Source of the DNA: Rodentibacter genomosp. 1
GTDB lineage: Bacteria; Pseudomonadota; Gammaproteobacteria; Enterobacterales; Pasteurellaceae
DNA length: 64,000 bases
Direction: 5' to 3'
NCBI RefSeq assembly: GCF_001999285.1
Contig: NZ_MLHN01000009.1
Span: 1 to 64,000, forward strand
Shown: in pieces, positions 26,401 through 48,452 of the stretch
Layout: every line of letters begins with the position of its first letter
Numbering within the stretch: position 1 is the first letter of the stretch
Position numbers and translations under genes: made by a program
Notes under the pieces: generated by a model
The model's database searches: none
The model's input: only the letters and a program-made list of their open reading frames with translations
Told to the model about the DNA's origin: nothing

Positions 26401-27753
26401 TTAAAGGTACATTGCGGCAATCCAGCCGAAGATAATGAGTGGAATATTGTAGTGAATGAACGTAGGTACAACAGAATCCCAAATGTGGTCGTGTTTACCA
26501 TCCATATTTAAACCTGATGTTGGCCCTAATGTCGAGTCAGAGGCAGGCGATCCTGCGTCACCTAATGCAGCGGCAACCCCTACAATAGAGACCGTCGCTA
26601 ATGGAGAGAAGCCAAAGGATAAGCAAAGTGGCACATAAATTGAGGTAATAATAGGAACTGTTGAGAAAGAAGAGCCTATTCCCATGGTGATGAGCAAACC
26701 AACAAGTAACATCAAAAATGCGGCCAAGCCCTTACTTTGAATTGCACCATTACTAAGGTTTTGCACTAAATCTGTCACACCTGTGGTGGCATTAATGACG
26801 TTAGCAAATCCTGAAGCAGCAATCATCACAAATCCAATCATCGCCATTAAACGCAAGCCTTGTTGGAAGATATCATTACTTTCTTTGAGTTTGAAGATAC
26901 CAAATACAGCGAAAATAACCAAACCGATCAAGCCACCAATGATTGTTGAGCTGGTGACTAATTGTGTTGCGAAGGTTGCGACAATAGCAATTAAACTTGT
27001 CGTGATGTGTTTTGGTTGAATATTCGCAATATGCGCTTCAATTTCCTTGGTAGTCGGTTCTTTAATAGCTACATTGTATTCACGAGGTTTGCGATAAGTG
27101 ATGAAGACTGCTGTTAATAGCCCCAAGATCATGCCGGCGACCGGTAGTAACATTGCCAGTGAAACTTGGGCGACATCAGTTTGTAAGCCGAGCGATGCTC
27201 CTGCTTGATTGATATTTTTCACCAAAATACTTTCAATAAAGATTTTACCAAAGCCCACCGGTAAAAGCATATAGGTAGCGGTTAAACCAAAGGTGAGTAC
27301 ACATGCCACTGCTCGGCGATCAATTTTTAGACGATTAAAGATTGATAATAGTGGCGGGATAATAATAGGAATAAAGGCAATATGTACCGGTAATAGGTTT
27401 TGAGATGAAATCGCAAATAGAGCCAATATTGCAAAAATTAAATACTTAAACCAAGCAAGATTGTTGCCTGTTGGCGTTTTATTAATTTTTTTGATGATTT
27501 TATAGGCGAGTAAATCAGTGATGCCTGATTTCGAGATTGCGATAGCAAAGGCGCCAAGCATGGCATAATTCATGGCAACTTCAGCACCACCCCCTAATCC
27601 TCCGGTGAAGGTTTCGATGGTTTTTGTTAAACCAAGATCACCGAATAAACCGGCGGTGAGTGCAGCGATCACGAGAGCGATCACAACATTGATACGTAGT
27701 AGACTCAGTGCAAGTAGCACAATTATTGAGATAACAACGGGGTTTGATAACAT
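26401..27753 (-). CDS. yuiF: YuiF-type Na+/H+ antiporter-family transporter, probable histidine transporter
   Basis: 450 residues with about eleven membrane helices and the family motifs GGLGGGAEVAMNYAMLGAFA near 50-70, and LGDAGSPASDSTLGPTSGLN near 405-425. The family is annotated as Na+/H+ antiporters. A His-rich leader peptide with a complete attenuator stands before it, so histidine uptake is the likely job here; I recall comparative-genomic proposals to that effect for YuiF homologues. The start ATG has AAGGAAAAAACACA upstream. A homologue beside rnt is known to me from H. influenzae. Confidence 0.85.
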   Translation of the reverse strand: MLSNPVVISIIVLLALSLLRINVVIALVIAALTAGLFGDLGLTKTIETFTGGLGGGAEVAMNYAMLGAFAIAISKSGITDLLAYKIIKKINKTPTGNNLAWFKYLIFAILALFAISSQNLLPVHIAFIPIIIPPLLSIFNRLKIDRRAVACVLTFGLTATYMLLPVGFGKIFIESILVKNINQAGASLGLQTDVAQVSLAMLLPVAGMILGLLTAVFITYRKPREYNVAIKEPTTKEIEAHIANIQPKHITTSLIAIVATFATQLVTSSTIIGGLIGLVIFAVFGIFKLKESNDIFQQGLRLMAMIGFVMIAASGFANVINATTGVTDLVQNLSNGAIQSKGLAAFLMLLVGLLITMGIGSSFSTVPIITSIYVPLCLSFGFSPLATVSIVGVAAALGDAGSPASDSTLGPTSGLNMDGKHDHIWDSVVPTFIHYNIPLIIFGWIAAMYL

Positions 27754-27765
27754 TGTGTTTTTTCC

Positions 27766-27825
27766 TTATAGATTAATGTGTGAATAGAGGGAAACGTTCA
27801 AGAAACAAAAGGGATAATGTCGCAT
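27766..27825 (-). CDS. Possible 19-residue upstream peptide
   Basis: After the attenuator, CAGGAG followed nine bases on by ATG opens a 19-codon frame (MRHYPFCFLN...) that stops 12 bases before the yuiF start. The ribosome binding site is stronger than many real ones here. It could couple translation into yuiF or be fortuitous. Nothing else supports it. Confidence 0.3.
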   Translation of the reverse strand: MRHYPFCFLNVSLYSHINL

Positions 27826-27847: not shown

Positions 27848-27926
27848 AAAAGAAACCCCTCGAAAGTTGCCTTCCGAGGGGTAAGATTTTTCACTATCCT
27901 TTTGGCTCGGAAGATGTCTTCCAAGC
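27848..27926 (-). promoter_or_regulatory. Histidine attenuator: antiterminator and terminator hairpins
   Basis: On the minus strand four segments follow the leader peptide. Segment 1 (27926-27917, GCTTGGAAGA) pairs with segment 2 (27914-27905, TCTTCCGAGC). Segment 3 (27882-27870, with CCTCGGAAGG) pairs with segment 4 (27867-27855, with CGAGGGGT) and is followed by TTTCTTTTAT, a terminator. Segment 2 can instead pair with segment 3 (CTTCCGAG with CTCGGAAG), which prevents termination. UCUUUC at 27945-27940, just after the leader stop codon, can pair with GGAAGA of segment 1. A ribosome waiting at the His codons leaves that pairing free and so favours the antiterminator; this last step is inference. 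Confidence 0.85.
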
Positions 27927-27945
27927 ACGCCACATACCTGAAAGA

Positions 27946-27984
27946 TTATTCAGTGAAATGGTGATGATAGCGGATAATGTTCAT
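27946..27984 (-). CDS. His leader peptide, 12 residues
   Basis: MNIIRYHHHFTE, with three consecutive histidine codons (CAT CAC CAT), preceded by a good ribosome binding site (GGAG, eight bases before ATG). It lies just before mutually exclusive hairpins and upstream of a transporter gene, the standard arrangement of an attenuation leader. The peptide itself probably has no function. Confidence 0.85.
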   Translation of the reverse strand: MNIIRYHHHFTE

Positions 27985-28014
27985 ATTTAAATCTCCAAGT
28001 AAGAATTGTCTTTT

Positions 28015-28061: not shown

Positions 28062-28745
28062 TTAAAGTGCGGTTGATTTTTCCTTCGTTTTTTCGTTTTC
28101 CGCTCTATTTAAGTGGGGAAATCCACCAAGATCTTTTAAATGATTTACCATATAACAGAACAATTCCGCAGTACGTTCAGTGTCATAGAGTGCAGAATGA
28201 GCTTGTTTGCCGTCGAAAGGGATGTTTGCGGCTTGGCAGGCTTTCACGAGTACCGTTTGTCCGAACATTAATCCTGCCAGACTTGCGGTATCAAACATTC
28301 CAAAGGGATGAAATGGGTTGCGTTTGACGCCGGTACGCTCCGCTGCAGCCATGACAAAACTTTGATCGAAAGCCGCATTATGTGCCACGATAATAGAACG
28401 CTGACAATCTGCTTCTTTTTGCCCACGGCGTACCATTTGGAATAACGCAGTGATCGCTTCTAATTCGGATACGGCACCGCGTAATGGATTGTGAATATCA
28501 ATGCCATTGAATTTCAATGATTCGGGGTTGATATTTGCCCCTTCAAAAGGTTCGATATGAAAATGACATTTTTGATCGGGCTGTAAATAGCCATTTTCAT
28601 CCATTTTTAGCGTAATAGCCGCCAGTTCTAATAGCGCATCTTTTTTAGCCTCAAAACCAGCCGTTTCCACATCAATAATGACAGGGAAATAGCCTCTGAA
28701 GCGATTTTTTAATTGATGATGATAAGGAATTTGAGAATCGGACAT
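28062..28745 (-). CDS. rnt: Ribonuclease T
   Basis: 227 residues, a DEDDh 3'-exonuclease that trims tRNA and other stable RNA ends. Exo I is [10 protein letters not shown] near 20-29, Exo II includes [13 protein letters not shown] near 120, and Exo III ends in [17 protein letters not shown] near 185-200. Length fits RNase T of gamma-proteobacteria. An uptake signal overlaps the C-terminal codons. It lies between yuiF and gloA on the same strand, as I recall for H. influenzae. Confidence 0.96.
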
Positions 28746-46785: not shown

Positions 46786-46984
46786 GTAGCTGGAGAGTAG
46801 GGAATTAACCCTACGCCGACGATGTAAAATCTTTCAGGCGCACATCAGTGCAGGGACTGTTACTGGACGAACCCTTGGAGAGATCCATTGCCCTATAGAT
46901 AGTGGGGTAAATGGACGCCGAAGGCGCAAAAGAGCGGTGGTTTTTCACGCCGTTTTTCAAACGCTCAGGCAAAAGGACAGGGGC
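46786..46984 (+). promoter_or_regulatory. Tandem glycine riboswitch
   Basis: Two glycine aptamers in series. Aptamer 1 (about 46786-46868): GTAGCTGGAGAGTAGGG, then CCCTACGCCGACG, TTTCAGGCGCA and a closing ACTGGAC. Aptamer 2 (about 46871-46984): CCCTTGGAGAGATCC, GGACGCCGAAGGCGCAA and ACGCTCAGGCAAAAGGACAG. The GGAGAG, GCCGA and CAGGCAAAAGGAC elements are the family core. The downstream gene is an amino-acid:sodium symporter, a known target class. Confidence 0.93.
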
Positions 46985-47030
46985 TAAAAGACAATCTGTA
47001 TTTTATTTCTTTTCACGGATGCTTTTCGTC

Positions 47031-47066
47031 TCCTTGTTGCGTTTATTTGTTTTTAGACAACGAGGA
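47031..47066 (+). promoter_or_regulatory. Ribosome-binding-site-masking hairpin (riboswitch output)
   Basis: TCCTTGTTG (47031-47039) can pair with CAACGAGGA (47058-47066; one G-U pair), which contains the ribosome binding site of the symporter ATG at 47073. No strong terminator lies between the aptamer and the gene, so control is probably at translation. Confidence 0.6.
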
Positions 47067-47072
47067 ATCACA

Positions 47073-48452
47073 ATGTCATTCACGACAATTTTATCTACGA
47101 TTGATAGCTTTATTTGGGGGCCACCGTTACTGATTTTATTATCGGGTACAGGGCTTTATTTCACCTTACGTTTAGGCTTTATTCAAGTCCGCTATTTACC
47201 ACTTGCAATCAGTTATTTGTTTAAAAAAGAACGTGGCGGAAAAGGGGATGTGTCTTCTTTTGCGGCACTGAGTACGGCTTTAGCGGCAACTATTGGGACG
47301 GGGAATATTGTCGGTGTTGCGACAGCGGTGCAAGCGGGCGGGCCCGGTGCGATCTTTTGGATGTGGCTGGTGGCATTGCTTGGTATGGCGACTAAATATG
47401 CGGAATGTTTACTGGCGGTGAAATATCGGGTGAAAGATCGCCGTGGGTTTATGTCCGGTGGCCCGATGTATTACATTGAGCGTGGCCTAGGCATCAAATG
47501 GCTTGCCAAGATGTTTGCGGTGTTTGGTGTGTTAGTCGCCTTTTTTGGTATCGGCACATTTCCACAAGTGAATGCGATTACGCACGCCATGGAAGATACC
47601 TTTCATATTCCGGTCATTATCACTGCTGTTGTGGTGACGGTATTGGTGGCAATGATTATCTTAGGTGGTGTAAAGCGTATTGCCACTACATCATCAATCA
47701 TTGTGCCTTTTATGGCGATTTCCTATGTATTCGTATCAATTATTATCATTTTACTAAATTGGGAACGAGTGCCGGATGCAGTAATGTTGATTATTCGTAG
47801 TGCTTTTGATCCGCAATCTGTGCTGGGTGGGGTATTAGGTTTTACCGTAATGAAAGCCATTCAATCGGGGGTGGCACGGGGGATTTTCTCCAATGAATCC
47901 GGTTTAGGGAGTGCGCCGATTGCTGCCGCTGCAGCCCAAACACGAGAGCCGGTTCGTCAGGGGCTTATTTCAATGACCGGAACCTTTTTAGATACTATTA
48001 TTGTGTGTTCAATGACAGGTATTGTATTGGTGTTGACCGGAGCGTGGAGTAATGCCGAACTTGCCGGCGCAACGGTAACCAACGCGGCATTTTCACAAGG
48101 GTTGGGATTAGATTTCGGGGCGACCATTGTCACCATAGGCTTATTATTTTTTGCATTCACGACAATTTTAGGTTGGTGTTACTATGGTGAGCGCTGTTTC
48201 GTGTATTTGGTCGGAACACGTGGTATTCGTTTATATCGCTTAATATTTATTATTTTGGTGGGGATCGGCTCTTTCTTGAAATTGGATTTAATTTGGATTT
48301 TAGCGGATATTGTGAATGGCTTAATGGCATTTCCGAATTTAATTGCCTTAATCGGATTACGTAAGATCGTAGTTGAAGAAACCAAAGATTATTTCAATCG
48401 TTTAAAGATTAATCATCACGATCAAGATGAACAATCCCCCTCTCAGTTGTAA
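47073..48452 (+). CDS. Alanine/glycine:Na+ symporter (AGCS family)
   Basis: 459 residues from ATG 47073 (MSFTTILSTIDSFIWGPP). The frame is open back into the riboswitch, but GAGGAATCACA sets this start. About eleven helices; family motifs: SSFAALSTALAATIGTGNIVG near 60-80, the GGPGAIFWMW segment, and the FSNESGLGSAPIAAAAA signature near 275. It imports alanine or glycine with sodium. The glycine riboswitch upstream implies glycine as a substrate or signal. Confidence 0.95.
   Translation: MSFTTILSTIDSFIWGPPLLILLSGTGLYFTLRLGFIQVRYLPLAISYLFKKERGGKGDVSSFAALSTALAATIGTGNIVGVATAVQAGGPGAIFWMWLVALLGMATKYAECLLAVKYRVKDRRGFMSGGPMYYIERGLGIKWLAKMFAVFGVLVAFFGIGTFPQVNAITHAMEDTFHIPVIITAVVVTVLVAMIILGGVKRIATTSSIIVPFMAISYVFVSIIIILLNWERVPDAVMLIIRSAFDPQSVLGGVLGFTVMKAIQSGVARGIFSNESGLGSAPIAAAAAQTREPVRQGLISMTGTFLDTIIVCSMTGIVLVLTGAWSNAELAGATVTNAAFSQGLGLDFGATIVTIGLLFFAFTTILGWCYYGERCFVYLVGTRGIRLYRLIFIILVGIGSFLKLDLIWILADIVNGLMAFPNLIALIGLRKIVVEETKDYFNRLKINHHDQDEQSPSQL

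Follow-up and report, generated by a model that had tools for sequence, protein, structure and literature searches.

The yuiF gene of Rodentibacter genomosp. 1 is preceded, on the minus strand, by a histidine leader. With a probability of about 0.88, we consider that this element controls yuiF as a ribosome-mediated histidine attenuator and that the gene most likely encodes a histidine importer. In the window, that is, the whole stretch of 64,000 nucleotides analyzed here, the Rfam family RF00514 (His_leader) matches positions 27848..27970 of the minus strand with 74.8 bits, well above the gathering threshold (cut-off 49 bits), and with an E-value of 5.3e-10 for the whole 64-kb window. The model is aligned end to end, from position 1 to 126 of 126. 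The source genome carries two RF00514 matches, one before yuiF and one before hisG, the latter preceding an ORF that starts MTNTTYSSNRLRIALQKKGRLSQDCAALLKQCG and is co-located with the PF01634 HisG match of this genome (G000, C49:86897). Since the two copies precede hisG and yuiF, histidine biosynthesis and yuiF appear to be placed under the same control.

The element resembles the his operon attenuator of Enterobacteria, described by RF00514, in its His-run leader peptide, its mutually exclusive hairpins and its intrinsic terminator, but differs from it in that the target is a transporter gene instead of hisG and that the leader contains only three His codons. The his leader of E. coli has seven His codons in a row.

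Leader anatomy and ribosome-position folding

The leader ORF MNIIRYHHHFTE (27946..27984, minus strand, as are all features of the leader) encodes 12 residues, with its ATG at 27984 and its stop at 27946, and is preceded by a Shine-Dalgarno-like GGAG that can be read at 27993..27996. It contains three consecutive His codons, CAT CAC CAT (27966-27958), as described in the initial annotation. This number is low: among the 55 of 57 yuiF leaders of the family that could be parsed by script (L127 and L135 were left out), only 3 have three His codons and most have more. Segments B to F can form two mutually exclusive sets of pairings, B:C with D:E and C:D with E:F. The B:C hairpin (27917..27945), revealed by folding, pairs UCUUUCAGGUAUG with CGUGCUUGGAAGA over 13 bp and has a 3-nt loop. 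The C:D hairpin (27905..27926; 27926-27918 with 27913-27905, 9 bp) is supported, like D:E and E:F, by folding and alignment. The D:E antiterminator (27871..27913) joins CUUCCGAG at 27913-27906 to CUCGGAAG at 27878-27871 over 8 bp, and E:F is an intrinsic terminator (27848..27882) with a 12-bp stem, 27882-27871 with 27866-27855, followed by a T-rich tail at 27854-27848. The four segments postulated initially, forming either 1:2 and 3:4 or else 2:3, were thus recovered as C:D, E:F and D:E, respectively. The additional pairing of UCUUUC with GGAAGA was correctly recognized but understated, since it belongs to the 13-bp hairpin at 27945-27917.

Chance structure was excluded by the RF00514 score together with two comparisons with shuffled sequences. 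Indeed, the 151-nt leader folds with -53.4 kcal/mol (z = -6.75), none of 200 shuffles being as stable, and it contains one terminator-like site versus a mean of 0.2 in shuffles. The leader region also holds three sigma-70-like matches, a weak excess over shuffled sequences (mean 1.4, sd 1.1). The only one near the leader start, at 27991-27964, overlaps the leader codons, and no promoter is claimed.

According to the proposed mechanism, a scarcity of charged tRNA-His would stall the ribosome on the three His codons, allowing B to pair with C. With B:C formed, D would remain free and could pair with E before F is made, so that no terminator would form and yuiF would be transcribed. When histidine is plentiful, the ribosome would reach the leader stop and cover B; C:D would then form, and E:F would terminate transcription ahead of yuiF. 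This order of events would hold if the mechanism operates in the cell as it does in silico.

The dependence on ribosome position was examined with ViennaRNA by forcing the ribosome-covered positions to be single-stranded in an RNA ending before segment F. With the ribosome stalled on the His codons, the window RNA forms B:C with a probability of 0.97 and D:E with 0.997. With the ribosome at the stop codon, a placement that covers B by construction, C:D reaches 0.72 and D:E only 0.13; the corresponding values in the absence of a ribosome are 0.83 and 0. The ribosome-position switch suggested by the initial annotation is therefore reproduced by folding, with an antiterminator in the stalled state and none at the stop codon. 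When the full-length RNA including F is folded, E:F prevails in each of the five cases (probability 1.0), so that the outcome would have to depend on timing, as is established for attenuators. The dependence on ribosome position is also found in related leaders: D:E is likelier with a stalled than with a finished ribosome in 55/55 parsed yuiF leaders, and its probability exceeds 0.5 in 41 of them when the ribosome is stalled and in none when it stands at the stop. The 14 leaders with D:E at or below 0.5 in the stalled state include L124 and L136, for which the ribosome was placed too far upstream; their correct leader frame is MNITLRNHHHRHLPE, and their alignment rows bear extra 5' letters.

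Conservation and distribution of the leader in Pasteurellaceae

Of the 140 family genomes, 133 contain an RF00514 match and 138 a yuiF relative. Examination of the upstream DNA of all 138 yuiF genes revealed a histidine leader at 57 of them. To be counted, a leader had to contain a pair of adjacent His codons, a TCTTTC close to its stop and a run of T; the His runs in the 57 are thus selected by the rule itself, which could overlook degenerate leaders. The 44 distinct sequences among these positives served to build a covariance model. This model gave no match better than E 0.24 at the other 81 yuiF genes of the family, nor upstream of 19 yuiF genes belonging to other families in the order. The latter were hand-picked among the matches listed, represent 9 families and come from a set of 199 genomes outside the family that gave a yuiF match (233 minus 34 family members). 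On the other hand, the model recovered leaders of hisG, hisC, hisD, DppA-type and RhuM genes at 16 of 17 loci tried, the single miss (L188) being a weak RF00514 match below the cut-off. Extra, weaker model matches in those loci range from E 1.4e-5 to 0.91, and many of them overlap the leader on the opposite strand.

The distribution by genus is patchy. The leader is present in 13/15 genomes of the window's genus, 9/9 of g5, 10/10 of g19 and 10/11 of g22, but in only 1/7 of g29. Homologues lacking the His codons, which had been named as grounds for refutation, do therefore occur: no leader was found at 81/138 family yuiF genes, and two of these belong to the same genus as the window (G120 and G130, with YuiF proteins 96% and 95% identical to that of the window). 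We read this patchiness as lineage-specific gain or loss, and not as evidence against the attenuator where it is present. In g22, G080 (L074, L187) is the sole genome of 11 with hisG and hisD and also the sole one without a yuiF leader. Separately, a record titled Pseudomonas stutzeri NCTC11607 (L251) contains a yuiF 93% identical to that of the window, and its title is probably wrong.

Alignment of the 44 distinct yuiF leaders, the comparison across Pasteurellaceae that had been proposed initially, shows that both alternative structures are conserved. Paired cells amount to 98.7% in the terminator form, versus 97.4% when the 3' letters are shuffled (0/500 as high) and at most 67.9% with slid partners; in the antiterminator form the values are 92.4%, 91.3% (0/500 as high) and at most 62.9%, the structures having been drawn on the window sequence, which favors them over slid versions. 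The covariation score is above all 500 shuffles for the terminator form (0.133 vs 0.109) as well as for the antiterminator form (0.121 vs 0.100), an excess that relatedness alone can produce. Pairs changed on both sides number 3/21 in each form, which 11/500 shuffles match for the terminator and 109/500 for the antiterminator. The B:C pair 51:69 is A-U in 30 and G-C in 12 of the 44 rows, a change that probably reflects one clade. The innermost B:C pairs of the window are not conserved in its relatives, 58:62 being unpaired in 39/44. The covariation is thin; it agrees with both structures and does not amount to proof of them.

These data bear on a reading in which the element is a decaying copy of the his operon leader that no longer regulates, or a mere terminator between rnt and yuiF. 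The small number of His codons in the window leader, fewer than in most others, and the two same-genus genomes without such an element would fit decay. Nevertheless, both exclusive pairings are kept across the 44 distinct sequences, the start, Shine-Dalgarno sequence, stop and terminator are intact, and the window leader still switches in silico, which makes such a relic extremely improbable. A pure terminator relic, in particular, was rejected on the basis of the ribosome-position folding and of the conservation of both pairings. Together with the Rfam match and the second copy before hisG, these results support the identification of the element as a histidine attenuator.

Substrate of YuiF

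The yuiF gene (26401..27753, minus strand) encodes a protein of 450 aa with PF03553 and an N-terminal PF13726, an architecture which we take to be the mark of YuiF. Histidine regulation is represented, at the level of sequence, by the attenuator. An NCBIfam search of the protein returned no name. The leader is situated between yuiF and a ribonuclease T gene (28062..28745, minus strand; TIGR01298, 348.7 bits), and the gene after yuiF is priC-like (PF07445). Using a rough motif, RNase T was detected upstream of yuiF in 39/57 cases with the leader (median gap 339 nt) and in 48/81 without it (median gap 92.5 nt). In H. influenzae, HI0325, annotated as 'sodium:protonantiporter', adjoins HI0326, 'primosomal replication protein N' (PMC3877243). 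Given this adjacency, the yuiF of the window is probably the HI0325 orthologue.

One argument concerning the substrate comes from genomes without hisG or hisD, a genome being counted as negative when it does not figure among the matches listed. No hisG match was obtained in 36/140 family genomes and no hisD match in 37/140; the extra one is G015, which lacks a hisD match and whose hisG match is fragmentary and close to the end of a contig. yuiF is present in 35 of the 36 hisG-less genomes and retains its leader in 25 of these 35, no leader being found in the other 10, compared with 32/103 genomes that have both hisG and yuiF (Fisher p 4.8e-5, a value that ignores shared ancestry). Since the hisG-less genomes with a yuiF leader are spread over seven genus groups (g5, g18, g19, g22, g35, g41 and g42), repeated loss of the his genes with retention of the leader is probable. 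In such genomes the leader on yuiF cannot coordinate histidine synthesis, which supports histidine import by YuiF.

Published work on a transporter of the same name points in the same direction. In S. aureus, mutation of SAUSA300_0846 almost abolished [3H]histidine uptake, which was restored by complementation (PMC10817146). The product is annotated there as a potential YuiF-type permease, and its tie to the YuiF of the window is the published name. For Firmicutes, PMC9413887 describes YuiF as a putative histidine permease controlled by HisR or by a T-box. The likeness thus extends to histidine control of a same-named transporter, but the regulator in those cases is a repressor or a T-box, whereas that of the window yuiF would be a ribosome-mediated attenuator. 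Taken together, leader retention without hisG or hisD and the S. aureus uptake reported in PMC10817146 indicate that YuiF very probably imports histidine, and they lend indirect support to the substrate proposed by the initial annotation; the YuiF of Rodentibacter genomosp. 1 would accordingly be expected to transport it.

It could be argued that the attenuator senses histidine while YuiF moves something else, namely that it carries out Na+/H+ exchange and that its histidine control is incidental, protons or sodium driving, for example, another histidine uptake system. Pfam indeed names both YuiF domains Na+/H+ antiporter, and most family yuiF genes (81/138) have no detected histidine leader. 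However, the leader is kept in 25/35 yuiF genomes without hisG, the YuiF-type protein of S. aureus takes up histidine, and the authors of PMC10817146 did not ascribe the acid phenotype linked to it to cation exchange. We therefore find such an exchange function unlikely. The probable import of histidine by YuiF would support renaming the 'Na+/H+ antiporter' gene, HI0325 in Haemophilus, as a probable Pasteurellaceae histidine importer. This matters most for species without detected histidine synthesis genes, which depend on import.

The regulatory mechanism itself is textbook knowledge, and the histidine-substrate inference for YuiF is already in print. Vitreschak et al., in 2004, reportedly predicted yuiF orthologues to be histidine transporters from proteobacterial attenuators. 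For 255 genomes, PMC3766115 lists 49 His leaders, of which 9 are from Pasteurellales, as well as a class 'histidine transporters', and a His leader before hisG is reported for Actinobacillus pleuropneumoniae in PMC4809551. Among the matches listed in the open-access literature, none was seen to describe a yuiF attenuator from Pasteurellaceae. The novelty is therefore modest and consists of the patchy leader distribution, the other targets such as a DppA-like gene, and a second small ORF before yuiF.

Second small ORF and other leader targets

Between the terminator and yuiF lies a second small ORF, MRHYPFCFLNVSLYSHINL (27766..27825, minus strand), which possibly has no role. It is preceded by AGGAG at 27840-27836, and its stop, separated by 12 nt from the start of yuiF, overlaps the likely ribosome-binding site. 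Using as a pattern AGGA, GGAG or GAGG followed by the core ATG-(CGA/CAG/CAA)-(CGA)-CAT, similar ORFs were identified in 21/57 leader-bearing yuiF upstreams, namely the window and L033, L036-L038, L040, L041, L046, L049, L050, L056-L060 and L062-L067. Their starts read MRH, MQH or MQRH and are conserved, while the remainder is variable. This recurrence and the position of the stop in the window would suit a control of yuiF that is wholly or partly translational and acts via the second ORF. Such control seems very improbable, however, since the pattern was not found in 36/57 upstreams, the length and peptide vary, and the stop is far from yuiF in several cases; transcriptional attenuation by the histidine leader remains the preferred explanation.

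To survey the targets of the leader, the ORF following RF00514 was read at 60 loci, a non-random set in which the first 31 are mostly the best-scoring and the other 29 come from 20 chosen genomes. It is hisG-like by its start in 32 loci and yuiF in 16, followed by a DppA-like SBP_bac_5 protein in 4 (G049, G085, G087, G096), a hisC-like ORF by its start, presumably hisC, in 2, a RhuM-type ORF in 2 (G091, G094) and hisD in 1 (G005, PF00815 match); the remaining 3 have another ORF or nothing (one contig end, two below the cut-off). The DppA-like targets at L175, L185, L191 and L194 match PF00496. For these four proteins, which are cut by the locus ends, the NCBIfam DppA model is best but below its cut-off. 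A His_leader in this position suggests that histidine controls peptide uptake there. G085 gave no hisG match, and the leader before its DppA-like gene is the only His_leader found in this genome. The RhuM-type ORF lies directly downstream of the leader at L172 and L174 (PF13310 was checked in L172 only) and is perhaps an insertion between the leader and its former target.

It is conceivable, though improbable in our view, that the leader is a portable attenuator module which, in Pasteurellaceae, came to act on at least five kinds of target (hisG, hisC, hisD, yuiF and a DppA-like binding protein), that it governs import alone once the his operon is lost, and that the MRH-type ORF adds a translational histidine check in some species. 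Elsewhere in the window, an ordinary glycine riboswitch (RF00504, 62 bits) was detected at 46865-46990 on the plus strand; it overlaps the start of the ORF 46911-48452, which from its sequence resembles a Na+:alanine/glycine symporter.
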